52,585 nucleotides of DNA, from positions 1-52,585 of IMG/VR virus record IMGVR_UViG_3300035158_000483. One strand, written 5' to 3'. Numbering within the stretch: position 1 is the stretch's first letter; every line of letters starts with the position of its first letter. Made by a program: the position numbers and the translations under genes. Below, one piece after another: positions 1 to 40,824 of this stretch. A model generated the notes under the pieces. The model was not told the DNA's origin, did no database searches, and saw nothing but the letters and a program-made list of their open reading frames with translations. This stretch comes from a virus.

Positions 1-2566
1 CAGCGTACCACTGCGGTGTTGTGCTAGAGGAGTTGTAGCCAGCAATGCGCCCGATCCCGCCATCATTCCAGATACGGGTGCCGGTGAAGTCCGTACCCAC
101 AGTGCCCGTACCCTGCCTCAACTCCCCACTGGTCCCGATCGTCAAGACACCAGCGATGTAAGATTCCAGCCCGAAGCGGATGATCTGTGTGTTGGTACTG
201 TCATAGAGCTGGATACCTGTCGCAGAACTGTAAGTCAACCTTGCGCCGGCGCTCTCCCCAACCCACAGGGTGTCACCATAGAACGCGGTCTGCGTGCCTG
301 AACTGTCGTAGATCCCCAGGCCGGTTGAGGTTAACTGGACTATCGGTTCTCCTGCTCTCCCAAGCGTGATGTCGTTGGCATACTCCGCGTACATATCGCC
401 GCTTGGATCGTAGAACCTGACGTATGAAGGGTCGTGAAGGCTGTAGGCGCCACCGGCCGTATTGCCCAAGTAGATCTGATCTTCCCAGAACGTTAGATAC
501 GGAGTAGTGTCGTTCAGCAACGACAACGATATCCCGTTAACCATCAGGTGCTCGGCATCTTCTGGCCCTACTCGGAAGCTGCCAGAGGTTAGCTTGGCAG
601 CAGGCCCCTCGAAGGTAAAGTTGGTTCCATCAAACTTTGCGTATTCGTCTGCTCCATCTCCCGCGTAGAACCTGCCCGTTGAGTCTCCGCTATTGTACTC
701 AAGCTGAACGCCAGCACTGCCGTAAGCGTTGCTCTCGATAGCAATGCGCTCGTTGTCTGCGTCTAGCCAGATGTTGGACTGGTAAAGTGCCGTGGCCGAG
801 ATGTTCCAGCCGCCGATCTCCCCTGACTCTGCTGTGACCTTCCCGCTAATCTCAAGGCCATCGTCGGGGTCCCAAGTCAGGTATTCTCCGCCCGAGTAGT
901 CACCGAGGCCAATACCGTAGGTGAGCGTGCTGTACGGCCCCCAACCATTCAGGTCGCCCAACCGGACAACCTCTGTGTTAGCATCCCAGGTCGCGCCCTG
1001 CGTGACAACGGACATACGAGGCCCTGCTGTCTGCGCGTCGAACTCGATGCGGCCATCACCAGAGGTCCCCAGGATGACGTAAGCGTGACCTTCCGGCCAG
1101 TCATCCGCACCAGTGCCATCCAAGTCGCGTATTACGTTGTACTCGGTCCCCGCAACCTGACTGTCAACCTTGATATACTCTGTGTTGCCGTTGCCTCTCA
1201 GCAGTACGATGGCGTAGCGTGTCATCGCCTGCCCGAAGTCAATGGTTGTGTCCGCAGCACCGACATCTGAGGGCAGGGTGCCCGATCCGTGCGGCACCAT
1301 CCAGTAACCGCCTGTCACCTGGACGCTGTTCTCGACCCACCGCAAGGTATCTACCTCCGAGACCCACAGCTGGCGGTAGAGGTAGCTGGATGTGCCCAGG
1401 TCGTAAGCATTGTTGGTCTTGGGCCTCACCAGGACGGTTCTGAGCGTGCCCTCCACGTAGAGCTTGTCCAGGGTCAGCTCCCCTGATGCGTTAGATCGGA
1501 GCAACACATTGGGCGTTGTTGCGGCGTCCGAGGTCATCTCGATGTTACCGTAGTGGACGTTGACTGGCTGGCTCTGCGTCCAGTCAATGTGTTCCTGGGG
1601 GACGAAGTTGGTCGTCTCGTTGTGATCCACGTCGCTGTGTTGCAAGGAGATTGTACGGCTCGCCGTGATGTCTCCCCCACCACTGAGGATGCCACCAGAT
1701 AAGATTAAGACTCCGCTGTGGGCTATATGCCTGTCTGCATCGTAATTCAGCGTCTGGTTGTGATCTACATCGCTGTGCGCCAGGGAGATCGCCCTGCTGG
1801 CCGTGATATCACCCCCTCCTGAGAGGATACCACCAGCCGAGATGGACACGCCGGAATGAGCAATGTGCTCGTCCCCCACGTAGTTCAGGAGTGAGTTGTG
1901 ATCCACGCCCCCAGGAATGACGACCGCTGTGATTTCCGGGCCGGAATCAGTGTAGGTGAAGTCAATCGAGCCAGAATCCACCAGGATGGTGCCCACAGCA
2001 TCCTGAGCCTCCTCGTCCGAGTAGGTTGATCCAGTCAGGCCAAGCTCTGCGTAGGTGTAGCTGTACTGCGTGATGGCTGCCTTGGCGATGTTCTCGTCGG
2101 CCACCGGATGCGTCTGAGGTAAGGCCCAATCCCTGTGCTCTGCGGCCACGAATCCGAGCAGATTGTCGTGGTTGATCTCGTCTGTGCCACCGCTTTCGTG
2201 GTATGAGGCGTGTGCCTTGGGCGCGTGCAGATCCGATCCGGAGAGACCAGCGTGCCAGGGGGCTGCGTCCGTGTGGAAGCTCATTGTGTGCGGCGTCATC
2301 CCGCCCCCAGCACCCGCACCGCCCGTCACTGACACGCGCCGCGGGCCTGAGCCAGAGACCGTGGAGTAGGCGTACAACCGCCCATCCTGCTCACGTAGAA
2401 TGACCGAGTGACCAGATCGCATTTGCTGCACGCCACCTACAACCGGTAGGCCGCGTAGCAGTTTGGGGCTGCCGCCCACCTGCACGTCAACGGTGTCACC
2501 GTGGACGTTGATGACGGTAGCTGTGCGAAGAGTCCGGTCAACACGCGGGTTTATCTCTTGTCTCAT
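1..2566 (-). CDS. Tail fibre / receptor-binding protein, 3' end cut by window edge
   Basis: The frame is open from an ATG at 2566 to base 1 with no stop, so at least 855 residues are present and the C-terminus lies outside. The ATG overlaps the stop of the upstream gene (ATGA). The N-terminal part (VHGDTVDVQVGG, then a Gly-rich stretch) looks like an attachment domain. It is followed by two 46-residue repeats of the DHN...NY...HI type common in phage fibres, then Gly/Ser/Thr/Asn-rich beta-structure. Last gene of the tail module, after the tape measure and baseplate genes, which is the usual place for the host-recognition protein. No catalytic motif, chaperone domain or transmembrane segment is visible. 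Function is inferred from repeat type and position. Confidence 0.75.
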   Translation of the reverse strand, partial: MRQEINPRVDRTLRTATVINVHGDTVDVQVGGSPKLLRGLPVVGGVQQMRSGHSVILREQDGRLYAYSTVSGSGPRRVSVTGGAGAGGGMTPHTMSFHTDAAPWHAGLSGSDLHAPKAHASYHESGGTDEINHDNLLGFVAAEHRDWALPQTHPVADENIAKAAITQYSYTYAELGLTGSTYSDEEAQDAVGTILVDSGSIDFTYTDSGPEITAVVIPGGVDHNSLLNYVGDEHIAHSGVSISAGGILSGGGDITASRAISLAHSDVDHNQTLNYDADRHIAHSGVLILSGGILSGGGDITASRTISLQHSDVDHNETTNFVPQEHIDWTQSQPVNVHYGNIEMTSDAATTPNVLLRSNASGELTLDKLYVEGTLRTVLVRPKTNNAYDLGTSSYLYRQLWVSEVDTLRWVENSVQVTGGYWMVPHGSGTLPSDVGAADTTIDFGQAMTRYAIVLLRGNGNTEYIKVDSQVAGTEYNVIRDLDGTGADDWPEGHAYVILGTSGDGRIEFDAQTAGPRMSVVTQGATWDANTEVVRLGDLNGWGPYSTLTYGIGLGDYSGGEYLTWDPDDGLEISGKVTAESGEIGGWNISATALYQSNIWLDADNERIAIESNAYGSAGVQLEYNSGDSTGRFYAGDGADEYAKFDGTNFTFEGPAAKLTSGSFRVGPEDAEHLMVNGISLSLLNDTTPYLTFWEDQIYLGNTAGGAYSLHDPSYVRFYDPSGDMYAEYANDITLGRAGEPIVQLTSTGLGIYDSSGTQTAFYGDTLWVGESAGARLTYSSATGIQLYDSTNTQIIRFGLESYIAGVLTIGTSGELRQGTGTVGTDFTGTRIWNDGGIGRIAGYNSSSTTPQWYA
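1624..1899 (-). repeat. Two tandem 138-bp (46-residue) repeats in the tail fibre gene
   Basis: Matching segments begin at 1624 and 1762, and a third start lies at 1900: an exact 138-bp period. Each unit encodes a DHN...LNY...HIAHSGV...GGILSGGGDITASR...LxHSDV block. The copies have diverged at the DNA level but keep the period exactly, as in fibre shaft repeats. Confidence 0.8.
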
Positions 2567-5415
2567 ACGAACTCCCTCAGATCCGCCTTGGCCACCAGTT
2601 CGGCTCTCTTGAAGCTCATCTGTACGGAATGCACGATGTAGTTACTGTAGACCTCCGGGCCGCCGTCGTGAGGCGTGTAGCGCATCTCAAGCGCATCCTC
2701 CGGCTCCCAGTGCAGTTGAGCAGCCGACGTCGGCTGCCGTGATCCAGCCTGCGACACAGCATCACGCACCATCCTCTGAGCCTCTTTGTAGGCTTCCTCT
2801 TCTTCCAGGCTCGGACAGTGGTAGGCCACAAAGTTGAGGCCGTACCGCTGCGCAGCCTCGTGGTCGATGTAGTCGCAGATCTCGGCGCCGATGATCCGGA
2901 TGTGCGTCGGTATGCGGTCCGTCTGTGTAATCCCATCCTCGTAGATGGACAGGTGCGTGCCGCCGGCGGGGAACTCAGCATCGCCGGCGCGGTGATCCGT
3001 GAACGTGCCAAGCCAGTGCTCCCATCCACTCAACTCCTCCTCGTCGTACTTGAGGGAAGCGTAACCGAAGCGGAGCACTGGCATCGCCTCGCGGTTGCCG
3101 CCCCCATCGGTCACGTACCGGACTGTACTGATGAACTTGATCCTCCTGTCCTCAATCGCGCGTTTCAGGCCGGCCAGGGCGCTGTTTCGGGAGTCTAAGA
3201 TCGTACTGTCCTTGAGCGCCCATAGCTGTGGCTGCGTGACGCGAATGTTGTCGGGGTCGTGGTCGCCGGTGCGAATGCACACGTAGCCGGCCTTGAGCAG
3301 CGCATCCTCCCATCCGTCTGTGTCGTAGCCGTAGACCGGGCCGCAGGCCAAGGTCTGCGCCTGGGCACCGTTGATGTAGGCGGTCACAAAGCGTTCGTGA
3401 GCAACAACGCGCACCGTCTTGCCGAGCATTGATTCGTCCAGCACGGCTTCATCTACCTTGACCCAACCAGAGGTGTCCTGACTCGTCTGCCAGAGCTGCA
3501 CCTTGGGTGTACCGGATACGTTGATGTAGTTGAATGCCAGTGCGGAGACCCCGGATAGTGATGTCCAGTCGCTGACTGACTTGGAACTGACTCGGAAGAT
3601 CACCTGGAATGTGTCATCATCGCCCCACTGGTCCAGCTCCTGGTGTAGCTCGAACGTCAGGTAGAAGTTTTTGACGTACAGGTCCTCGCCATCCACCGTG
3701 GGTATCCAGACGGTATCCCACTCGTTAAACGTGAACTCAGGGACGGTATAGTCCACGGACAGGGCTGTGTCGAAGTCGAGCACGCCGGCCTTGGCCGCGA
3801 TGTCCTTGAGCACCCATTCGAGCGTCTTGTCGTGCTCGTCGTCATAGGCCCACACGCCCTTGAGGACGATCTGATCGTTGTTGTGCTGCCGGACGGTCGT
3901 GCCGCGAGGATGGTCTTCCCCCTTGTCGCTCATTCCGCTACCGCGACTAGACACTTTGAACCCAGGTATCAGGAAGAAGTAGGATGCTCCCACATTGCCA
4001 CCGGACGAGGGCGTCAACGCATCCCAGTCCTCTTCTTTGCAATGACCGATTGTGATCTTGTCTACCCCGCCATCTACTGTCCAGGCAGTAATCTCTTCGG
4101 TAACTCCCAATCCGCCGCCGTCCATCACGCACAAGAGCCAACCGTACCCATCACCATCATTGCTCCAGTTAGAACCAGCAGTCTCTCGGGCAGATTCAGT
4201 CTGGCTTTTGAGGACCTGTCCGGAGACACGCTCTGTCATCATTGAGTAGTGCGAACGCCAATCGCTTTGGGTGACCTGCTCAAGCTCCATCTCCTCCTCA
4301 CCCATATGCAAGGGGGCACCGCCTTCCTCGAACCATTCGTAAGTGTCCTTGTTGGAAAAGCCGGAAGCCTCACCGTGATCGTCCGGCTCCGAGTCGTAGC
4401 TGTCCCAAGGCCCTTCGGTTTCGTCCGGCCACTGCCCCAGGTCCCGCGCTAGATGCCTCTCAGCAGCTCGGACGTGCATCACCTTGGTTTCCGGGACGGA
4501 AATGTTGCAGATGATCCCCACCTTGCCCCGATCGAAGCTCCAACCGCTGTACGCTTCGTCACCGTGGCGCACCATCTTGTGGGGTTGTCCCCACATATGC
4601 TCCAGTCTCGCCAGCTCTGTTCGCGTGGGCGAACCTGAGCTTGCGAAGTGGAACACGGTGGCAATCAACTGGCGACCGCGACGCTTCAGCTTCACCTCGA
4701 ACAGCTCGCCGTGCTTGAGGTTTGAGGTGTCAGACAAAGCCACAGACGCCAGCTCATACCACTTGTTGTTGTCGGCCTTCCCGTATCCGCTGGCGTTCCA
4801 GTCCTCGGCGCCGCGATAGAGCAGGTACAGCTTGCCAGTCACCGCGTCCACCCAGGCCGCGATGACGTTGTACTGGTCGAAGCCACAGCCGACGACGCCG
4901 AAGCCGTGCCCCAGGCGCTGAGGGCCGTGTGTGGGGGAGAGATCGTAGCCCATCCCGAACATCGCCCCACCAGCATCGTTCTCCGGCATAAACCGCGCCT
5001 TGACCGCGAAGTCCTTAGCGTCGAAGGGCTGTGTGGCGAAGGCAATCAGCGGCTTGTTGTAGGTCGCGAAAATCTGCCGGTTGTCCTCTAGCTCCTCTAT
5101 CTCGGTCTGGTCGATCTGCGCGGTCTCACCGTCCTCGCCCTCTACGGTGATCTGCCCCGCACTGACTGAGTACAGCTTGTCCACGAGGCCCAGGTTGTCA
5201 TCGTAGTGCTTGATCTGCGACAGCCACTGCCAGTCCTGGGAGCTGGCCCAGTCCCTGAGCATCCTCCAGATGATGTCCCTGCTCTTGAAGGAGAACTCGC
5301 GTGCTCCTGGTGCGTAGCGTGTGGGGATGGAGTCTATGGCCTCTACGGAGATGATGTCCATCTGCCCGTTGTATCCAGCCTTGCGCCAGAGCCATAGGCC
5401 GGGGAAGATCGCCAT
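2563..5415 (-). CDS. Large tail/baseplate (tail tip) protein
   Basis: 950 residues from the ATG at 5415, in a run of tail genes between tape measure and fibre. No signal peptide or membrane segment; rich in Asp, Trp and Tyr with alternating beta-type sequence, including a region around residues 170-330 that reads like a lectin/laminin-G fold (inference). The ATG has only GGAG two bases upstream, too close for a good ribosome site. The frame is open a further 23 codons upstream, to the TAA of the previous gene, and those codons read like protein (GYLGRYLDADGD). The true N-terminus is therefore uncertain: start at 5415, at the internal ATG 5361, or stop-codon readthrough from the upstream gene. 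Its TGA overlaps the fibre ATG. Confidence 0.7.
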   Translation of the reverse strand: MAIFPGLWLWRKAGYNGQMDIISVEAIDSIPTRYAPGAREFSFKSRDIIWRMLRDWASSQDWQWLSQIKHYDDNLGLVDKLYSVSAGQITVEGEDGETAQIDQTEIEELEDNRQIFATYNKPLIAFATQPFDAKDFAVKARFMPENDAGGAMFGMGYDLSPTHGPQRLGHGFGVVGCGFDQYNVIAAWVDAVTGKLYLLYRGAEDWNASGYGKADNNKWYELASVALSDTSNLKHGELFEVKLKRRGRQLIATVFHFASSGSPTRTELARLEHMWGQPHKMVRHGDEAYSGWSFDRGKVGIICNISVPETKVMHVRAAERHLARDLGQWPDETEGPWDSYDSEPDDHGEASGFSNKDTYEWFEEGGAPLHMGEEEMELEQVTQSDWRSHYSMMTERVSGQVLKSQTESARETAGSNWSNDGDGYGWLLCVMDGGGLGVTEEITAWTVDGGVDKITIGHCKEEDWDALTPSSGGNVGASYFFLIPGFKVSSRGSGMSDKGEDHPRGTTVRQHNNDQIVLKGVWAYDDEHDKTLEWVLKDIAAKAGVLDFDTALSVDYTVPEFTFNEWDTVWIPTVDGEDLYVKNFYLTFELHQELDQWGDDDTFQVIFRVSSKSVSDWTSLSGVSALAFNYINVSGTPKVQLWQTSQDTSGWVKVDEAVLDESMLGKTVRVVAHERFVTAYINGAQAQTLACGPVYGYDTDGWEDALLKAGYVCIRTGDHDPDNIRVTQPQLWALKDSTILDSRNSALAGLKRAIEDRRIKFISTVRYVTDGGGNREAMPVLRFGYASLKYDEEELSGWEHWLGTFTDHRAGDAEFPAGGTHLSIYEDGITQTDRIPTHIRIIGAEICDYIDHEAAQRYGLNFVAYHCPSLEEEEAYKEAQRMVRDAVSQAGSRQPTSAAQLHWEPEDALEMRYTPHDGGPEVYSNYIVHSVQMSFKRAELVAKADLREFV

Positions 5416-17312: not shown

Positions 17313-18377
17313 TTAGGTTAAGGCGCAGTAGGCGTCTAGCCATTTGCGCCAGTGTTTTTCAGTTGCTCGGTGTTCGATAACCCACTCGTGACCCTGCTTT
17401 TGAAGACGTCGACGCAAGCGCCAGTCCTCGATCAACTTGGCGATCTGTGCGTACCACTCGTCGCTGTCGTAGTGGTCCCTGACGAAAAGGGCGTTGTGAC
17501 GGTTGTTGCACACACGGCGATACACCTTGCAGTTCGTGACGACAGGCACCGCACCTCCGAAGCTTCCGTCACGGAGAGGCCGCTTTGAGGCCATATACTC
17601 CAAAGCCTTGATGCCAGACTTGCTCTTGTTGAAGCGATCATCCGGCTCCAAGGGGGCTAGGCCGATGTCGATCTGGCGGATCAAGGCGGGGTAGCTCTGG
17701 AAAGGCACTTTGGCACCGATCGTCAGGCGGGGCAGCTCCTTGAGATAGTCCGGCACGAAGCCGCCTATGAAGAAGCGCACGTTGGGATGGTCCTCTGCGA
17801 TCTTCCGCAGGGCAGGTCCGACTGGTCGCCAGTCGTCTGCGTGAGTATCTGTGCCGACAATCCCTACGGTGAGCGCGTCGTCCACACGGTGCTCGTCTGG
17901 AGCGAAGGGCTCCCACATCTCCGGTACAATCGTGTTGGGCAGGACAAAGACCTGCTCGTTGTACCGCTCCATCACATCGCGCAGGTAAGGCGTAGAGGCG
18001 GTGCCAGCCGTGCAACGCTCCAGCACGCTGGTCGCTATCCCCTCGCCGGTGACCTCTCTGTGCGAGTTGGTATAGTCGTCATCCCACTCACACACGACAG
18101 CCTTGCCGGCTTTCTGGAGCGTCGCGATGAACGTCTCGGCCTCGCGCTCGTGGCCAAGAGGGGCGATAACCCTGGCCAGCACGAAAACGTCATACGTGGC
18201 TGGGTCTAGGTGCCCCATCTGCGTGGCCCTGAATGCCCGATCAATCGGCATCCAATCAGCCTGATAGCCGTGCTCGCTCAGCTTCCGATACGGAAAGATG
18301 ATGCGATAGGCATCGCAGGCCGTTGGCCCGTTCTTGCGCTCGCCAGCGAACAGCCCCAGCACTCTAGGCTTCGTCAC
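17313..18377 (-). CDS. GT-B type glycosyltransferase
   Basis: 354 residues, GTG start (GGGAGG nine bases upstream), overlapping the 3' end of the preceding gene by 14 bases. Rossmann-like halves are visible. The C-terminal donor-site region DIGLAPLEPDD...KSKSGIKALEYMA is typical of GT-B enzymes that transfer sugars from nucleotide-sugars. It sits inside the head-tail module between connector and tail tube genes, suggesting glycosylation of a virion protein or of the host surface. Substrate unknown. Family confident, role inferred. Confidence 0.75.
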   Translation of the reverse strand: MTKPRVLGLFAGERKNGPTACDAYRIIFPYRKLSEHGYQADWMPIDRAFRATQMGHLDPATYDVFVLARVIAPLGHEREAETFIATLQKAGKAVVCEWDDDYTNSHREVTGEGIATSVLERCTAGTASTPYLRDVMERYNEQVFVLPNTIVPEMWEPFAPDEHRVDDALTVGIVGTDTHADDWRPVGPALRKIAEDHPNVRFFIGGFVPDYLKELPRLTIGAKVPFQSYPALIRQIDIGLAPLEPDDRFNKSKSGIKALEYMASKRPLRDGSFGGAVPVVTNCKVYRRVCNNRHNALFVRDHYDSDEWYAQIAKLIEDWRLRRRLQKQGHEWVIEHRATEKHWRKWLDAYCALT

Positions 18378-19643: not shown

Positions 19644-20706
19644 CTAGCCACCGGTCGAAGCGCGGCCCTTGAAGCGGACGTTGCCAGCGGAGTAGACAAC
19701 CTCGAAGCGATCCGGGAAGAAAGGCTGGTACTTGATGTACGCATCCCAGGAGAACCGCTTCATCGCCATCGCGTCATCGACCGTGGGCGGGGCGTGTAGG
19801 GTAGGGGGCTGAGTGACGCCAGCCACAATGCCCTTCGCGCCACCCAAGCAGACCGTCGCGTGGACATGCCGGCCGAGCGTGACGTAACCATAGATGCCGG
19901 TGTCAACCTCGGTGTCATAGTCCTTCTGCAGCGGCCGGTCGAAGCTCAAGCGGTCGTCGTCCGTGTTCACGGAGACCAGACGCCGGTTGGTCAGCGAGCC
20001 TTCGGTGTAATCCACACCGTCGCTCACGCCGTAGTCGCTGGTCTTGGTCTTGTGAATCGTGACGATCTCGCCCTCGTGGCCGGAGAACGCGCTCGCCTGC
20101 CCAGTGTCGAGCTGGACGTAGCGGGTGTTGGCCGGCTGACCAGGCGTAATCGTGTCGTCCACCTTCGCAGCAGCGCCCGTACCTGCGGGGGCCGAGGAGA
20201 CGATATCGGCTGTCTGCGTCACAGGACCGCAGTTGTAGAGCGTGCAGCGCGTGGTCTGGATGAACCGCGTGGCCTTGAGGCGACCAACCTCGATATCCAT
20301 CATCAGCTTGCCGAAGTCGCCAGCGTACTCAGCCGCTTCCTTGAACTCCCCACCGGCCTCGTTGCGGATGTCGTAGAGGACACCAGGGGACGTGATTGCG
20401 ATCATATCCCCGGTCGGGCCGGTTGGGTTGTTGGCGAACGGAGCCTCGCGATAGCTCATACCGAGCCAAATCTGATCCAACAGGCTCGGTTCGAAGAGGT
20501 CACCGTTGCCGAGATCGTTGAAACCATCGTTGGAGGCGTCCCCGCAGTAGAGCTCGTAGGGACCCTCGAGGAAGGCGTTGCGAGCCAGGATGTCCATATG
20601 ATCGGCAATGGACCGGGCCATCAGGTCCCGAATGATGGGAATCAGCCCCGCACGACCGCTGTTGCGCCGCCAGTAGTTAACATAATCATCATCGCTTGTG
20701 TTACTA
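19644..20706 (-). CDS. Major capsid protein, exon 2
   Basis: About 354 codons forming the C-terminal three quarters of the major capsid protein. The open frame has no proper start: an in-frame TGA lies just above a GTG inside the intron. Joining exon 1 at 20972 to 20706 gives ...APQGAMAL|SNTSDDDYVNYWRRNSGRAG... and a 470-residue protein with the helix and beta pattern of HK97-fold capsid proteins. Located between scaffold and adaptor. The join is inferred from reading frame and intron structure and may be off by a few bases. Confidence 0.75.
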
Positions 20707-20971
20707 CGCACTCAGTGCGCGGCTAGGTCATTTCTGCCTAGCTCTCACGCTCTCACGTGAGGCCGGACTATATCTTCATCCAATCAGGATGCCGGGTACT
20801 CTAAGTCGGTTCTCCGATAGTCTCTGAACCTTCCCCTGGTCTAGGGGCTCGGCTGCTGATTGCCCAATCCCTGAGATTCTCAAGCCTTCGCGCTCACCGT
20901 TTCCAGTCATCGCTGTGGCTCTCAAGGCTCTAAGGGGGTTCCAGCAATTCACCCGATTGCCCTCTTACGCT
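20707..20971 (-). ncRNA. Group I self-splicing intron in the major capsid gene (IA-like, no endonuclease)
   Basis: Minus-strand core elements, 5' to 3': GAATTGCTGG near 20950 (P element), ATCAGCAGCC at 20851-20860 (Q), GGTTCAGAGACTA around 20818-20830 (R), GAAGATATAGTCC near 20766-20778 (S). R and S pair as P7. A TCGG-AGAA-CCGA hairpin lies between P7 and P3', as in subgroup IA. CGGGT/ACCCG forms P3 and CATCC/GGATG forms P8. Three small hairpins follow before the 3' exon. P1 can form from GCCCT in the exon and AGGGC in the intron. No open frame is present. Unspliced RNA would stop four codons past the junction. Confidence 0.85.
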
Positions 20972-21321
20972 AGGGCCATCGCACCTTGCGGTGCGAGCAA
21001 GCTCGAAATGAACTTGTGCAGCGCGACCTTGCCCATGTGGTGCTCGGTCGTGATCGTCCGCTGGTTGCTGTCGGTGTACATCGCGTGAGCCCACAGATCG
21101 CGCAGGCCGACAGCATCGGTGTTGGGCTCCAGGTCGTAGACCTGCGAGAAGGTCACCTGGTTGGTGTCCCGACCGCGGAGGTCGACGACAGTTGGAACGA
21201 ATCGAGTGAACACATTGCGCGTGCGCCACACGTCCAGCAGCAGCGGGACGTACCACGCTCGCGTCTTCTTCGTGATATCCCCCCAAGGGTTATCACTATA
21301 GGTTCCGGCGAATGTAGCCAT
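20972..21321 (-). CDS. Major capsid protein, exon 1
   Basis: N-terminal 116 codons plus two bases, ATG at 21321 with AGGAG upstream. Sequence (KTRAWYVPLLLDVWRTRNVF, TNQVTFSQVYDLEPNT) resembles the N-terminal arm of HK97-fold capsid proteins. Without splicing it ends at ...GAMALA followed by TAA. The gene follows scaffold and precedes the adaptor. A hairpin (21350-21366) lies in the leader. Confidence 0.8.
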
Positions 21322-24208: not shown

Positions 24209-24464
24209 CTCTGCCCCCCGACCTTCTCCAGTCATAGCCGTCGCTGATCTCCAAGACGCTATGCGCTGAAGCGCGTGTGAAAAGTGCTTTGAATTTCTTG
24301 GCCAAGAAATGCCTTCCGCTTTTGCAGAGCCAGTCGCGTAGGGTAGGGCGGCGGAGTTCGACGCCGTTGACCAGCAAGTAGACACCGTCCTGCGTCTCAA
24401 GCCACTCGACATCTTCCGTCACGGAAAGCTCCTCCTCGGTGTAACTGGCTATTTCACGCATCAT
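24192..24464 (-). CDS. Hypothetical small protein after the large terminase
   Basis: 90 residues. The first ATG (24464) overlaps the terminase TGA (ATGA), with AAGGAG just upstream; the second ATG has better spacing. Acidic N-terminus, then a basic C-terminal half (RRPTLRDWLCKSGRHFLAKKFKALF). Contains a TTCCGTCACGGAA copy (24414) that encodes LSVTE. No recognised domain. Confidence 0.5.
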   Translation of the reverse strand: MMREIASYTEEELSVTEDVEWLETQDGVYLLVNGVELRRPTLRDWLCKSGRHFLAKKFKALFTRASAHSVLEISDGYDWRRSGGRDGWRR

Positions 24465-26365
24465 CTTCTCCTTACGTGCAGAGAGCGGCTCCTGTGGAGC
24501 GAATGGCGCATCGAGGGCCTTCTGTCACGGCTCATAGCCAGCAGAGGGATCGTCCAGTGATTCGATTGCTCCCCGGCCATCTCGCCGGTGAAGATGCGCC
24601 GGCGCATCCAACCGCCTGCGATCTGCAGGGCGCTTACGATGTCCTGGGTGAGCTTCTTGTCAGGGAAGGCGTATTGAGCGAGCTGCCGGCGCAGGCCCCG
24701 GATGTAGGGATACTTCAGCAGGCCACGCTGCATAATGAGCTTGATCGCGTTGTGGTAGGCCTGCTTCTTGCCGGTCAGGTTCATCCCCTCGACCAGGATG
24801 CCTTCGCCCACATCGGAGAAGGCGAGCTCGTCCATCGCCTTCTGCGAGCCGGTCGCATCGAACGCGGCGCCGACCGGTTGATAGAGGTTCATCGCGGTCT
24901 TGAAGCTCGACAGGAAGGGGATGTAGGAGCCGCCTCCGTACACCCAGTCGAACATACGGAGCGTTGCCGGATGCTCAGGGAAGCCGGTGATGTCCAGGAC
25001 CAGGACCACGCCGGCGTTGCGTCTAGGCGGTTCGCCCTGGCCAGGATCTCCGACGACCAGATAATCCCGGCCACGGTCAGGCGGCATCATAAGCTGGTGG
25101 CATCCTGCAAGGCTCCTCTCCTCATAAGCGAAGCCGGCCTTACCTTCCTTTATGCCCTGGTGACACAGTCGATTCAGGCTCCGGTCCTCGCACTGCTCGA
25201 TGACAGCACGCGCAAACTCCTCACACGTCCCCATCGGCCTCGCGCCTTGCATCTCGATGGCGCGCAGCTCGGGTGGCAGGGCCTCGCGCATTAGCCTCAC
25301 GTCCCGCTTGGTCAGGGACTCGTTCATACTGGTGGTGATCGTCATCGACAGGTACGTCTCGGGGTCCTTCTTGGCCTTGTCGTAACGCTCCCATAGCCAG
25401 GGGACGTCCGTCGCGGTGGTGATCACCGACAGGCGGCCGAGGCGCGGCCGGTTCGTGGGTCGCTCGCCACGTAGGCGCGTGCGCATAATCTGGACCGTGC
25501 TCGGTGAGTCGATGAAGCCGAACTCGTCACCGTTCATCCAGTCGCCCTCCCAGCCGCGCAGCTTCTCGATCTCGTCAGCCGCGCTCATAAACTCCAGCTT
25601 GCTGTTGTTGTAGAGCTCGATGGTGGGGTAGGGGCGTCGCACAGCACGCTTGATGAACCGTTGATACCGGTTGCCGTCCGCACGCTCGATGATGGCCTGG
25701 TACATCAGCTTGGCCTGCCAGAACGTGGGAGCCACGTTCATAAACTTGAAGTAAGGCGTGAGCGCAGCCCAGGTAGCAGCAGAAAAGGCGACCATAGAGG
25801 TCTTGCCGGAGTTGTGATGGACAAGACCGTGCGCCACATAGTTGTTGTAGATGGGGACGTGAAAGTCGTAGAACTCAGATTGGTCGAGAGCCTCGATAGA
25901 GCTGATGGGGTCCGGCCCGCCTGTGGAGCAGAGAGGCGATCCGACGTGAAGGTCCTCAAGACGGCGATAACCGTTAGGCGTGAGGAATGCGTGCCGGCCA
26001 GTGACCTCGATCTCGCGGCCGCTGGCCATTGTGACGCGGTAGATTTCCTCTACGCCCTTGACGTAGGGTTCACCCGCTTGCGCAGGGGTGAACCCATCTC
26101 CGGTCCACGCAAGGACCGTGTGCGTTCCCTCGATCTCTTCTACGGGCGTCTCTGTGTCTGAGACAGGATCGTAGATCAACGTCCCAGGCGCGAGACAGCC
26201 AACGCCGCCGATAATCGTCACCTCGGGCTGCGACGACACGTGGAGGGGCGTCTGATAGTCGTGAAATGCCCATCCACCGAAGTAGTAGTCGGTGAAGTAG
26301 GAAGGATTCTCCGTGGCCGCCTTCCTGAATATGGCCTTATCGTCCGTGGTCAGCCGGTAGGCCAC
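24461..26365 (-). CDS. terL: Terminase large subunit (intein-containing precursor)
   Basis: 634-residue precursor, 505 after removal of the intein at residues 57-185. Start is a GTG abutting the TAG of the small gene upstream. Walker A is GGVG|SGKTS, split by the intein; Walker B acidic pair is WMNGDE (D280, E281). The RNase H-like nuclease shows D440 (LVVGDPGQG), D503 (AAFDATG) and D575 (LTQDIVSAL). It should package DNA into proheads using ATP and cut genome ends. The putative small subunit lies 16 kb away, which is unusual. Confidence 0.92.
   Translation of the reverse strand: MAYRLTTDDKAIFRKAATENPSYFTDYYFGGWAFHDYQTPLHVSSQPEVTIIGGVGCLAPGTLIYDPVSDTETPVEEIEGTHTVLAWTGDGFTPAQAGEPYVKGVEEIYRVTMASGREIEVTGRHAFLTPNGYRRLEDLHVGSPLCSTGGPDPISSIEALDQSEFYDFHVPIYNNYVAHGLVHHNSGKTSMVAFSAATWAALTPYFKFMNVAPTFWQAKLMYQAIIERADGNRYQRFIKRAVRRPYPTIELYNNSKLEFMSAADEIEKLRGWEGDWMNGDEFGFIDSPSTVQIMRTRLRGERPTNRPRLGRLSVITTATDVPWLWERYDKAKKDPETYLSMTITTSMNESLTKRDVRLMREALPPELRAIEMQGARPMGTCEEFARAVIEQCEDRSLNRLCHQGIKEGKAGFAYEERSLAGCHQLMMPPDRGRDYLVVGDPGQGEPPRRNAGVVLVLDITGFPEHPATLRMFDWVYGGGSYIPFLSSFKTAMNLYQPVGAAFDATGSQKAMDELAFSDVGEGILVEGMNLTGKKQAYHNAIKLIMQRGLLKYPYIRGLRRQLAQYAFPDKKLTQDIVSALQIAGGWMRRRIFTGEMAGEQSNHWTIPLLAMSRDRRPSMRHSLHRSRSLHVRRR
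25811..26197 (-). mobile_element. Mini-intein inserted in the terminase Walker A motif
   Basis: 129 residues from C57 (CLAPGTLIYDP) to N185 (YVAHGLVHHN), followed by Ser as +1 residue. Splicing block A (Cys start), block B (GREIEVTGRHAFLT), block F (EFYDFHVPIYNNYVAHG) and block G (HHN|S) are all present. No homing endonuclease domain fits in this length. Removal restores GGVGSGKTS. The terminase ATPase should be inactive until the intein splices. Confidence 0.93.
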
Positions 26366-35626: not shown

Positions 35627-36778
35627 ATGTCTGACGATAGGACACTGATCTGGGAACTCTCTCACTGGCAGAAGCGCCGCTTGCCGGATATCCAGAAGGA
35701 GCTGGCTGAGCTGTTGGCGCTCAAGCCTGAGTTTGCTACCGGCAAGAAGCCCTTCCCTGGGATTCCGTACGTTCCCTATGACTGGGCTGATGTCAAGCAC
35801 GACGAAGATCGCAAGCACACGTCCGAGCCGCACCGTTACATAGAGACTGAACACGGTCGCGTCTACCTCTACAACTTCCGCGACGGCGGCCTCACTCGGT
35901 ACGAGGGCTCGTACCGCTACTTCCCCCTGCTGGTGCCGCGCACCAAACAGGGTTGGAAGATGCAGATCCCGCAAGAGGGCTACCTCGAATACGACGTGAT
36001 GTCGGGAGTCACGACGGTCTACGACGAAGAGGACAACGAGCTGGCCGACCTGCAGCTGGAAACAGCGATGGACACCCGCTCCCCGGACACCCTGGCCGAT
36101 ATGGCCAAGGAGCAATTGGCCCTGAAGGGGATTCCGATATGGCCGGCCCAGATGTACGCAGTCAACACGGAGCACTTCCCCTGGCCGATCAAGAAGCGAC
36201 ACCTCGGCTACGCCTATATCAGCAACGACGAGGTGCGCGTCCCCCTGGTCGGTGTGGTCGCTGACCTGGAGACTGAGGAGTATATCTACGTGCATATGGT
36301 CGGTCACGAGTCGAACGTGCGCAGCATTCTGGCCACGTTCAACACGTCGCGTCGGAAGCATATCCGCACGAACACGAGCCTCGGCGGATTGTCCACCTAC
36401 TCCAGCCACAACTACCGCACCTATCACCGGCCAGTAGGAGACCGGCTGATGTCCACGATCCTGGTGGACAACCGGTGCCTGGAGCAGCAGGTGAACGACT
36501 ATGGCTACCTGTTGCGCCGGCGCGACGAAGCCGGCATAGACCCCGGTGAAGCTTTCGCCGCACGCCTCAACTCCGTGCTGACCGTCCCCGTGCTCCGTGA
36601 ATGGGGCGATATCCTTCTCAAAGAAGGCACCAACAGGAAGATCGCACGGCAGATTCACGCGGCCGGTGACGTGCCTGTGGCGTACGCTGTCACCCGCAGC
36701 GAGCGTTGGCAGAAGCTGATTCAGTCTCTACTCGACGAAGGCAAAATCTCAGTCCCCAGCCCCAAGGAGGTAAGCTAA
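35627..36778 (+). CDS. Hypothetical protein, 383 residues
   Basis: CCCCATAGGAGG leader, ATG at 35627. Soluble, rich in Tyr and Arg (HRYIETEHGRVYLYNFRDGGLTRYEGSYRYFPLL). No motif recognised. Its TAA overlaps the ATG of the methyltransferase-helicase gene, and AAGGAGG for that gene lies within its last codons, so the two are made together and may work together. Confidence 0.65.
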   Translation: MSDDRTLIWELSHWQKRRLPDIQKELAELLALKPEFATGKKPFPGIPYVPYDWADVKHDEDRKHTSEPHRYIETEHGRVYLYNFRDGGLTRYEGSYRYFPLLVPRTKQGWKMQIPQEGYLEYDVMSGVTTVYDEEDNELADLQLETAMDTRSPDTLADMAKEQLALKGIPIWPAQMYAVNTEHFPWPIKKRHLGYAYISNDEVRVPLVGVVADLETEEYIYVHMVGHESNVRSILATFNTSRRKHIRTNTSLGGLSTYSSHNYRTYHRPVGDRLMSTILVDNRCLEQQVNDYGYLLRRRDEAGIDPGEAFAARLNSVLTVPVLREWGDILLKEGTNRKIARQIHAAGDVPVAYAVTRSERWQKLIQSLLDEGKISVPSPKEVS

Positions 36779-39700
36779 TGGCACGCCTCGCAGCGCAGGA
36801 GAAGCTTGGCTACTACCCTACCCCTTCCGCTGTCATTCCGCTCATTGCGTCGCACTTGAAGCGCAATGGTAAGCCCTATCGCGTCCTGGATCCCTGTGCC
36901 GGGACAGGCGCAGCACTCGCGCAACTGGAAGAAGAGCTCGGCGGCAACGTCGAAACCCTTGGCGTCGAGCTGAGCCCCAAGAGGGCTGAGAAGCTCAAGC
37001 ACAACGCCGAGAAGGCTCTGCACACGGCTTGGAACGGCGTGCTGATGACGGATGCGTCCGTCGCCCTGCTGTTCCTCAACCCGCCGTACGACCACGCACG
37101 ATGGGCCACGCAGAAGCGCGAAGAGGCTGAGTTCCTACGGCGCACCGTGGAGAAGCTGCAATACGGTGGCGTCTTGGCGTTCCTTATTCCCCAGCACGTC
37201 TTGGCTGATCGAGGGACCGCACGCCTGCTGGCCGGACATTTTGATAACCTGTCCGTCTACAGGTTCCCCGACGAGGAGTACGAAGCTTTCGGCCAGGTCG
37301 TCGTGTTCGGCATTCGCACGGCCTGGAACCCGCCCGATGGCGAGGCGATTGACGCCGTACGCGAGTACGCCGACGCCGATCTCCCTCAGCTCACCAAGGG
37401 CGATGGACAGTACGAGCTCCCCGCGTCACCGGCGAAGATCAACTTCCGCCGTCAGTCGCTCGATGCTCGCTACAAGATCGGCAAGGCAAGCGCCCTGGGT
37501 TGGCCAGACGGCCTCAAGGACGCAATGAAGCCGAAGCCAGAGATCACGATGAAGCCCTTGATCCCGCCGCGCAAGGGCCATATCGCGATGCTCCTGGCCA
37601 GCGGTATGTTCAGGACCACGCCCATTGTCCGCGACGGCGATGTCACGCTCCTGAAGGGTCGCGCAGTCAAGTATCAGGAGAAGACCGAGACCATTGAGGA
37701 CGATACCAGAACCACCAGGATCGTGGACAAGTTCCGCACCACGGTCGGCTTGATCGGACCAGACGGTATCCGCGTCGTGGACAATAACGAGGCGGAGCTG
37801 CGCCGGCTGATGCAGGAGTACGGCGCCGAGATCACGGAGAAAATTCTGGAAACTGAGCCGCTCTACAACTTCGATCCTACGGACGAAGAGTGGGAGATGC
37901 TCGGTACGCTGAGCAAGAACCGTGACCCGCTGCCTGGCCAGGACGAGCCCGGCCTACTGCCCTCTCAGAAGCACCTGGCAATGGCTGGCCTGCGGAGCCT
38001 GCAGGACGACAACACGCTACTCATTCAGGGCGAGATGGGTGTGGGGAAGACCACGATTGCTGCCGCACTCATTGATATGCTCGACGCCTACCCTGCTCTG
38101 GTCCTGGTGCCGGCGCACCTGGTCAAGAAGTGGCGTCGCGAGCTCAAGGAGGTCATTCCCGGCGTCGAGACCTACCACATTGAGCGGATCGGCAAGACGT
38201 CCTCGATGGAGCACGAGGTCAACGACGTACGGGAGTTCTTGGAGCTGTGGCACAGCGGCCAGCTCGGGGACAAGGCCGTGGCCGTGATGAAGACCACGAT
38301 GGCCAAGGCGCACGGCGGTTGGGGCTCCGGCGTGTGGCACAGGTACACGCTCTGGCAGGACAACGGGAGCCAGGCCGAGCAGACTGAGCGCAGGCCGTTC
38401 AACAACACGCTCAAGGTCTACAAGGCGATGCGCGACGACCTGCCCACACGCGCCACGGTCGTCCAAGAGGACTGGTGGAAGGGCGATCTGCCCCGCAACG
38501 AGCGCGAGCAAGAGGTCTACGACGCACGCCAGCAGGTCCTCAAACAGGCGATCAGGTACCCCGTCTGCCCCGTTTGCGGTCAGGCCCAATACGAGACCGT
38601 CGATGGTGTCACGCAGCGCGTGATGAGCTTCAAGACCTTCGAGAAGAACGCGCTCCACTGCGGGGCGCACGTTCGCGATGGCGAACACGTTAGGCGTTGC
38701 CAGTCCGCGCTCTACGACTACGGCAAGTACCGGTACCGTCGATACGCAGCAGCCGACTATATCAAGGATCACGCCGATGGCGAGTTCCAGATGCTGATTG
38801 CGGACGAGGTGCATTACCACAAGGGCCGCTCCGACCGCGGCCGCGCCTTCGCCCGTCTGCTGTGCGCCTCCAAGTACCACGTCGGGCTGACCGGTACGAT
38901 CTTCGGTGGCACGCCGGAGTCGATCTACTGGATACTGCACAGGATGTCGATCAACGGTATCCAGGAGGACTACGACTACAACAGCTCCCTGCGCTTTATG
39001 GAGCGTTACGGCGTGCTGGAGCAGGTGATTGTGGACAAGGGCTACACGAGCCGCTACGGATCCTTCAACGCCTCTCGCCGCGTCCGCAACGACACGAAGA
39101 AGCTCCCTGGCGTCTCGCCGGCGATACTCGAGTACCTGCTCAAAGATGTGCTGTTCGTCAACCTGGATCAGTTAGGCGTCGATCTCCCGCCCTACCAGGA
39201 CCGCGCCGTGCAGGTGTCCGGCACGCCTGAGCAGGCCGACCAGTGGAACAGCCTCAGCGACACGCTGCTGGAGAGAGCCATAGAGGACAAGCGGTATCTG
39301 TCCTTGTGGCTGCAATGGGCACTCGGTCGCCCCAACTCGGCCTTCCGCTCTGAGGAAGCCGTCAAGGAGTGGCGGGACGACGATGGGGAGATTGAGCGGG
39401 TCGAGAAGATTATGGACCTGCCCAAGATCGAGGGCGTGCTCCCGAAGGAGCAATGGCTGGTCGACTTCGTGCGCGACGAGTCGGAGAAGGATCGGGCCGT
39501 GATCGTCTACTGTCGCCAGACAGGGACGAGGGATATCCGCGACCGGATTCGGGACCTGCTGCGCGACGAGGGCTTTGACGTGGCCGTGCTCGACTCCAGC
39601 GTCTCGACGTCGGACCGTGAGGCGTGGATCGAGAGGAACGCGTCAGACGTCGACGTGCTAATCACCAACCCAAGGTTGGTCGAGACGGGGCTGGACTTGA

Positions 39701-40824
39701 TCCAGTTCTGCTCTGTCGTGTTCTACGAGCCCGTCTACAGCCTGTCCACGATGTGGCAGGCTGAGCGCCGCGTGTGGCGTCTCGGCCAGGCGAAGCCGGT
39801 CAAAGTCGTCTACCTGGTCTACCGCGACTCCTGGGAGGAGAACGCGATTGCCCTGATGGGGAAGAAGAAGAGGGCAGCGCAGATGGTCTACGGAGACGAT
39901 ATCGGTGGCGCAATCGTCCCGGAGGCCGACACAGCCGGCTCCTTCAAGGCCGAGATGATGGCGGGCGCTGTGGAAGGCGCGGAGCTTCCCGATCTCGCGG
40001 AGATGTTCAACACGGACGCCTTCGACCTCGATGACACACCGGTCGAGACGCTCGGAAGCATTTCCGAGACGGAAGCTGACGAGCCGGACGACGTGGAGTA
40101 CGAGGGGTACACACCGGCCACGTTCGACACTATCGAGGTCGGCGCCGAGGTCTGCGAGGATCACCCTGAGTACGGCCGAGTGAATGGCGTGATTGAGCAG
40201 ATCAAGGATAAGCACGTCAAGATCAGGTACACCGACACCTACGATATCGGTGAGAACTACGTGGTCTACCAGGAGATGCTCGATGGCATCTACCTGGGTC
40301 ACCGGTCCGAACCCCTCACGATGGCGCAGCTCGCCGCTCGGATGAAGGCGGTGAAACGCAGTAAGAGCAAGCGGCGGAAGGAAGAGGACGACGAAGCCAA
40401 GCAGCTCTCGCTGTTCAGCGAGCCGGAACCAGAGGAAGAAGAGGAGCCGGTCAAGGTGATCAGCACGTACACACCTCAAGACGCTCTCGACGATGGTCTC
40501 TACGTCGATGTCTCCGATATGGCCACGGAGGCCGGTTTCCGCTGGCCGGTCGTGATGACTCGCGGCGTCCATTACACCGTCGAGGACATTCCGCAGAGCC
40601 AGGCGCACCAAGGCTATGACGGTCGGCTTTGGGACCTCTTGAACGTGTTGCGCTACACGCTCAAGAAGACGAACGGCGACTTCCTAGAGCCGGTCAAGTT
40701 CAATATGGTGATGCACCACAAGCCGAACGGCCACGTTCGCAAATGGCTCACGCTGACCGTCGTCGGGCAGTATACAGAGGACGGCGAGCCTATGCTGGTG
40801 GTGATGCACCCCGAGGAGATGTAG
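36778..40824 (+). CDS. Methyltransferase-SF2 helicase fusion (DarB-like layout)
   Basis: 1348 residues, ATG overlapping the previous stop. N-terminal N6-adenine methyltransferase fold: motif I VLDPCAGTGA (38-45) and catalytic NPPY (101-104). Then a Snf2/SF2 ATPase: Walker A GEMGVGKTT (418-425), DEVH box at 676, C-terminal helicase lobe with DVLITNPRLVETGLDL and QAERRVWRLGQ near 990. A Cys cluster (CPVCGQAQ) sits between lobes. The Asp/Glu-rich C-terminal third includes SETEAD from a TTCCGAGACGGAA copy. Fusions of this type (P1 DarB, strawberry-notch-like) protect phage DNA from restriction or remodel DNA; that role is inferred here. Confidence 0.85.
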   Translation: MARLAAQEKLGYYPTPSAVIPLIASHLKRNGKPYRVLDPCAGTGAALAQLEEELGGNVETLGVELSPKRAEKLKHNAEKALHTAWNGVLMTDASVALLFLNPPYDHARWATQKREEAEFLRRTVEKLQYGGVLAFLIPQHVLADRGTARLLAGHFDNLSVYRFPDEEYEAFGQVVVFGIRTAWNPPDGEAIDAVREYADADLPQLTKGDGQYELPASPAKINFRRQSLDARYKIGKASALGWPDGLKDAMKPKPEITMKPLIPPRKGHIAMLLASGMFRTTPIVRDGDVTLLKGRAVKYQEKTETIEDDTRTTRIVDKFRTTVGLIGPDGIRVVDNNEAELRRLMQEYGAEITEKILETEPLYNFDPTDEEWEMLGTLSKNRDPLPGQDEPGLLPSQKHLAMAGLRSLQDDNTLLIQGEMGVGKTTIAAALIDMLDAYPALVLVPAHLVKKWRRELKEVIPGVETYHIERIGKTSSMEHEVNDVREFLELWHSGQLGDKAVAVMKTTMAKAHGGWGSGVWHRYTLWQDNGSQAEQTERRPFNNTLKVYKAMRDDLPTRATVVQEDWWKGDLPRNEREQEVYDARQQVLKQAIRYPVCPVCGQAQYETVDGVTQRVMSFKTFEKNALHCGAHVRDGEHVRRCQSALYDYGKYRYRRYAAADYIKDHADGEFQMLIADEVHYHKGRSDRGRAFARLLCASKYHVGLTGTIFGGTPESIYWILHRMSINGIQEDYDYNSSLRFMERYGVLEQVIVDKGYTSRYGSFNASRRVRNDTKKLPGVSPAILEYLLKDVLFVNLDQLGVDLPPYQDRAVQVSGTPEQADQWNSLSDTLLERAIEDKRYLSLWLQWALGRPNSAFRSEEAVKEWRDDDGEIERVEKIMDLPKIEGVLPKEQWLVDFVRDESEKDRAVIVYCRQTGTRDIRDRIRDLLRDEGFDVAVLDSSVSTSDREAWIERNASDVDVLITNPRLVETGLDLIQFCSVVFYEPVYSLSTMWQAERRVWRLGQAKPVKVVYLVYRDSWEENAIALMGKKKRAAQMVYGDDIGGAIVPEADTAGSFKAEMMAGAVEGAELPDLAEMFNTDAFDLDDTPVETLGSISETEADEPDDVEYEGYTPATFDTIEVGAEVCEDHPEYGRVNGVIEQIKDKHVKIRYTDTYDIGENYVVYQEMLDGIYLGHRSEPLTMAQLAARMKAVKRSKSKRRKEEDDEAKQLSLFSEPEPEEEEEPVKVISTYTPQDALDDGLYVDVSDMATEAGFRWPVVMTRGVHYTVEDIPQSQAHQGYDGRLWDLLNVLRYTLKKTNGDFLEPVKFNMVMHHKPNGHVRKWLTLTVVGQYTEDGEPMLVVMHPEEM

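Follow-up and report, generated by a model that had tools for sequence, protein, structure and literature searches.

A phage-type group I intron without an open reading frame in the major capsid gene of a metagenomic virus

In the analysed window, which covers a complete IMG/VR virus record (52,585 bp), a capsid protein is split between two annotated ORFs, and this raises the question of what separates them and whether one protein can be made from both. The initial annotation had proposed a group I intron of about 265 nt at 20707-20971 without naming a strand. The element itself, its core structures and the two halves of the reading frame stood, whereas length and position had to be revised: the intron lies on the minus strand and comprises 319 nt (20693-21011), and the earlier coordinates were wrong at both ends because the ends of the ORFs had been followed. 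With high confidence, the locus is read as a complete, ORF-less, phage-type IA group I intron that interrupts the major capsid gene in the codon of Tyr104, and whose predicted splicing would restore the capsid mRNA.

A covariance search against the Rfam group I model, which had been suggested as a check, agreed with this reading. On the minus strand, cmscan reported RF00028 over the full-length model with 76.3 bits (E 1.1e-17; gathering score 50), and no other RNA was found in the 52,585-bp window at the gathering threshold. A match to RF02440 at 20602-20628 was disregarded, its score being under gathering. In MFE folding, the intron reached a z of -5.25 against dinucleotide shuffles, and 0 of 100 shuffles were equally stable. 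All helices from P1 to P9.2 can be drawn within the 319 nt (Table 1), and the P, Q, R and S elements, the P7 pairing, the P7.1-type hairpin and P8 are all present, as had been noted before. Of the features of group I introns, the locus shows the P3-P8 core with P/Q/R/S, the U-G wobble in P1, the terminal G and a gene restored by exact removal. P10 is weak, with AUGA/UCAU as the best candidate, and the P4-P5 stretch is the part closest in sequence to other phage introns. The assignment to IA is based on P7.1 between P7 and P3' and on the peripheral P9.1 and P9.2 hairpins instead of a subgroup model, and it does not distinguish IA2 from another IA subgroup. An intein or a frameshift in place of an intron was ruled out by the in-frame stops and the RF00028 match.

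Table 1. Features of the interrupted capsid gene and its intron, listed in the direction of transcription.
Feature	Position	Strand	Sequence, pairing or basis
Exon 1, major capsid gene (103 codons and first base of Tyr104)	21012..21321	-	aligns to N-termini of uninterrupted relatives
Group I intron, 319 nt, without ORF	20693..21011	-	RF00028, P1 pairing, empty site in L005
P1	20999..21015	-	exon AAGU^UC (21015-21010) with GAGCUU (21004-20999), U-G wobble at 5' splice site
P2 and P2.1	20959..20995	-	20995-20990/20985-20980, GCAA loop; 20976-20972/20963-20959; also in MFE fold
UAA in exon 1 frame	20965..20967	-	intron nt 45, P2.1 loop, before P3
P3 5' strand	20951..20955	-	CGGGU, partner ACCCG at 20793-20797
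P4, P5 and P5 extension	20853..20947	-	P4 20947-20942/20858-20853, P5 and its extension inside
P6/P6a	20829..20850	-	
P7, P7.1, P3 3' strand, P8, J8/7	20766..20822	-	P7 20822-20818/20770-20766
P7 pairing			GACUA/UAGUC
P7.1	20817-20806	-	UCGG-AGAA-CCGA
P3 3' strand	20797-20793	-	
P8	20791-20787/20781-20777	-	CAUCC/GGAUG
P element			AAUUGCUGGAA
Q element			AAUCAGCAGCC
R element			GUUCAGAGACUA
S element			AAGAUAUAGUC
P9	20744..20761	-	covariation across 40 related introns
P9.1 hairpin	20722..20742	-	GCUAGG-CAGAAAUGA-CCUAGC; outer stem covaries across 40 introns
P9.2 hairpin	20707..20719	-	CGCAC-UGA-GUGCG; sequence
Exon 2, major capsid gene, including stop codon	19644..20692	-	phrog_1357 major head protein, E 8e-7; aligns to relatives

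The 5' splice site was placed after U21012 (21012/21011) according to the P1 pairing in the Rfam alignment. For the 3' splice site, the frame of exon 1 constrains the last intron base to a G at codon position 1 of exon 2. Position 20693 (20693/20692) was chosen because the joined protein then aligns to L005, an uninterrupted relative, without indels, while sites at 20711, 20690, 20687 and 20681 were rejected, since they add or remove residues compared to L005. Exon 1 ends with U and the intron with G20693. Joining U21012 to A20692 turns the two ORFs into a 452-aa protein that is joined in a tyrosine codon (T^AT), reads ...KVALHKYDDYVNYWRR (L005: KVALHKYDDMITYWRQ) and has the peptide VALHKYDDYVNYW across the junction. 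The junction residues are KVALHKYDDYVNYW in the window and KVALHKYDDMITYW in L005 (KVALHKYDD), and the joined DNA CACAAGT^ATGATGAT corresponds to CATAAGT^ATGACGAT. In the predicted spliced RNA, ...CACAAGU is followed directly by AUGAUGAU, with 319 nt removed. The earlier view that the two frames encode the N- and C-terminal parts of one capsid protein is borne out by this alignment, and the annotation of the phage is corrected from two ORFs to one capsid gene.

There is good evidence from PHROG, NCBIfam, fold and gene order that the split gene is a major capsid gene of the P22/N4-gp56-like type. Exon 2 and L005 both match phrog_1357 ('major head protein', E 1.5e-11 for L005), and NCBIfam TIGR04387 (N4-gp56 capsid) matches L005 with 42.5 bits (E 5e-11), under the cut-off of 60. 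An AlphaFold model of L005 built from 16 relatives has low confidence (mean pLDDT 57), and in Foldseek it matches best to the capsid proteins of P22 and N4 and to an N4-gp56 capsid, with E-values of 3e-6 to 5e-5. The protein resembles phage capsids in both sequence and fold, which places it among the HK97-fold major capsid proteins.

Used singly as queries, exon 1, exon 2 and the portal protein retrieved no relatives. A search with TerL retrieved four contigs, from whose capsid genes 19 viral and 4 genomic loci were reached. In 22 distinct relative contigs, a single tblastn segment crosses the intron site without an insertion, and cmscan detected no group I intron in these loci at the gathering threshold. 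Relatives that contain the segment as coding sequence, which would have spoken against an intron, were not found; instead, the segment is missing from these contigs, whose capsid genes read as the joined protein. The insertion is in phase 1 at a tyrosine codon (T^AY) that is mostly conserved among the relatives. The intron has well-defined borders, its site is empty in 22 relative contigs, and it is a sporadic insertion. The capsid gene of L022 (IMGVR_UViG_3300028842_000330, 1657-3939) is split by a separate group I-like intron about 30 codons downstream of the window site, which matches RF00028 only weakly (27.4 bits, E 1.1e-4, under the gathering score). Both introns share the capsid family and the P9.1 loop, but the L022 intron is about 0.93 kb long and contains an antisense ORF of 230 aa with weak endonuclease-like matches, whereas the window intron lacks an ORF. 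Since the two introns occupy different sites, capsid genes of the family were invaded at least twice.

Splicing of group I introns is initiated by guanosine and takes two steps. By the same route, the late transcript of the window phage would fold, and an external guanosine would attack after U21012, which P1 holds in place. Exon 1 would attack next after G20693, and the ligated exons would form the capsid mRNA. We infer this splicing, including its guanosine-dependent self-splicing nature, from sequence. The UAA at intron nt 45 should halt ribosomes coming from exon 1 ahead of P3 and thereby leave the core free to fold; according to a review, in-frame stops of this kind are viewed as an aid to core folding (PMC3984707). 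As the GTG of the exon 2 ORF at 20711 is not preceded by a visible Shine-Dalgarno sequence, capsid production should depend on splicing, and the intact protein should be made only after the intron has been removed.

The proposed dependence on splicing is also what would permit a regulated late-expression checkpoint on capsid production, as the initial annotation had considered. This has only a small chance of being correct, as 22 relative contigs do without the intron, the sequence shows no sign of regulation and the capsid intron of mycobacteriophage LittleE is reported to be efficiently spliced (PMC3706429). A degenerate intron that has lost splicing, with the two ORFs translated as separate capsid fragments, is very unlikely. 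It could draw on the GTG in the exon 2 frame, but that GTG lies within P9.2. Moreover, every core helix and the signatures at both splice sites are preserved, there is no decay in the exon frames, and residues 1 to 104 form part of the conserved capsid protein. Insertion of an unrelated segment into the gene through misassembly or chimera formation can be given practically no credence: although the interrupted gene comes from one metagenomic contig only, the insertion is base-exact, one open frame results from joining and its ends carry group I splice-site signatures.

The preferred reading, a spliced intron, leaves the question of how it arrived and persists. No sizeable ORF is present in the 319-nt intron and Pfam scans found no homing endonuclease family among the 49 proteins of the window, so that the earlier statement that an endonuclease is lacking applies, and the intron does not carry the endonuclease gene of a homing intron. 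It was probably acquired by horizontal transfer and, without an endonuclease of its own, could spread via one encoded elsewhere or by reverse splicing; collaborative homing has been described (PMC3984707). Alternatively, an endonuclease may have been lost in the past, or the intron may persist by vertical inheritance because an essential gene would tolerate only its exact removal.

Group I introns in capsid genes have already been published, and the window intron is a clean new example. For LittleE, splicing of the major capsid intron was shown by RT-PCR and N-terminal protein sequencing (PMC3706429). This probable group I intron likewise interrupts an HK97-type capsid gene, follows an exon ending in U, ends with G and is missing from relatives (PMC3706429), but it has about 819 bp and an antisense LAGLIDADG-type ORF, compared to 319 nt without an ORF in the window, and its capsid family and host are different. 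The intron of BAKA and Optimus is similarly small (265 bp), ORF-less and located in a virion gene, but this is a minor tail gene, and the intron has sequence in common with that of LittleE (PMC3706429). In the Delta and Zeta groups of crAss-like phages, capsid-gene group I introns occur alongside a TerL intein, as in the window; these phages are of another lineage, and their introns were located via their endonuclease domains (PMC7886860). According to a citation in PMC3706429, lactococcal phage Tuc2009 also has a capsid-gene intron, which resembles the window intron in the gene it occupies.

The P9.1 hairpin with the loop CAGAAAUGA falls outside the RF00028 model. As it is common to the window and L022, it was used as a search pattern with fixed loop letters and inner GG/CC, while the outer stem and P9 were left free, resulting in 49 IMG/VR loci (L033-L081). 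Across 40 introns, 99.4% of cells show pairing in the P9 and P9.1 stems; there are 111 double changes, and covariation is 0.612 versus 0.02-0.085 when slid. Among 118 core-pattern matches, the hairpin is present only in L040; a second flagged match, L131, sits in downstream sequence. The hairpin marks a subfamily within the group I introns of phages. A literature search on the P9.1 hairpin of phage introns found nothing relevant.

The intron lies in or abuts a capsid gene in 16 of 39 non-redundant hairpin loci (L033, L034, L035, L040, L043, L052, L054, L057, L058, L060, L063, L067, L069, L070, L071, L076) compared to 8 of 50 controls (L090, L093, L099, L110, L128, L140, L143, L152), an exploratory result (Fisher p = 0.015), as the idea of an enrichment arose on part of the loci that were then counted. 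Capsid genes were assigned by hand with four PHROGs (10, 1357, 283, 2263), both exons being checked in part of the cases; phrog_544 contributed nothing usable, and other capsid families are also present among the controls. It is a tentative and rather doubtful proposal that the subfamily with this P9.1 (GG-CA-GAAA-UG-A-CC with a covarying 4-bp stem) prefers virion genes, above all those for major capsid proteins, in phages that are not related to one another. A 'capsid specialist' lineage as an established fact was rejected, because the enrichment is modest and controls hit capsid genes too. Judging by the controls, introns in uncultivated phages probably often target capsid genes as well. According to a 2025 paper, the group I introns of phages prefer genes for nucleotide synthesis and DNA metabolism (PMC12350094), with which the preference of the subfamily would contrast if true. 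The covarying hairpin may be of wider use as a lead on the gene preference of phage introns. Two copies of the 3' part of an intron, about 313 bp apart, point to tandem introns in L052 (944-1316), and two identical copies 280 bp apart in L073 (1234-1568) may represent tandem introns or perhaps an assembly repeat.

In the left half of the window, the minus strand encodes TerL, portal, a coiled-coil protein at the place of a scaffold gene, the split capsid, a head-tail adaptor, a tail tube and, where a tape-measure gene would lie, a very long ORF. The TerL ORF (24461-26365) holds a 129-aa mini-intein (25811-26197, minus strand; Pfam Intein_splicing) in the Walker A motif, which spans Cys57 to Asn185 and is followed by Ser. 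At this TerL site, L004 carries the C-terminus of an intein, while L002, L003 and L005 are without an intein. On the plus strand, 36706-40824 encodes a 1372-aa protein with DUF6094 methyltransferase-like, helicase and DUF6573 parts. A glycosyltransferase gene (17313-18377, minus strand; phrog_7162, E 3e-23) is located amid the head-tail genes.
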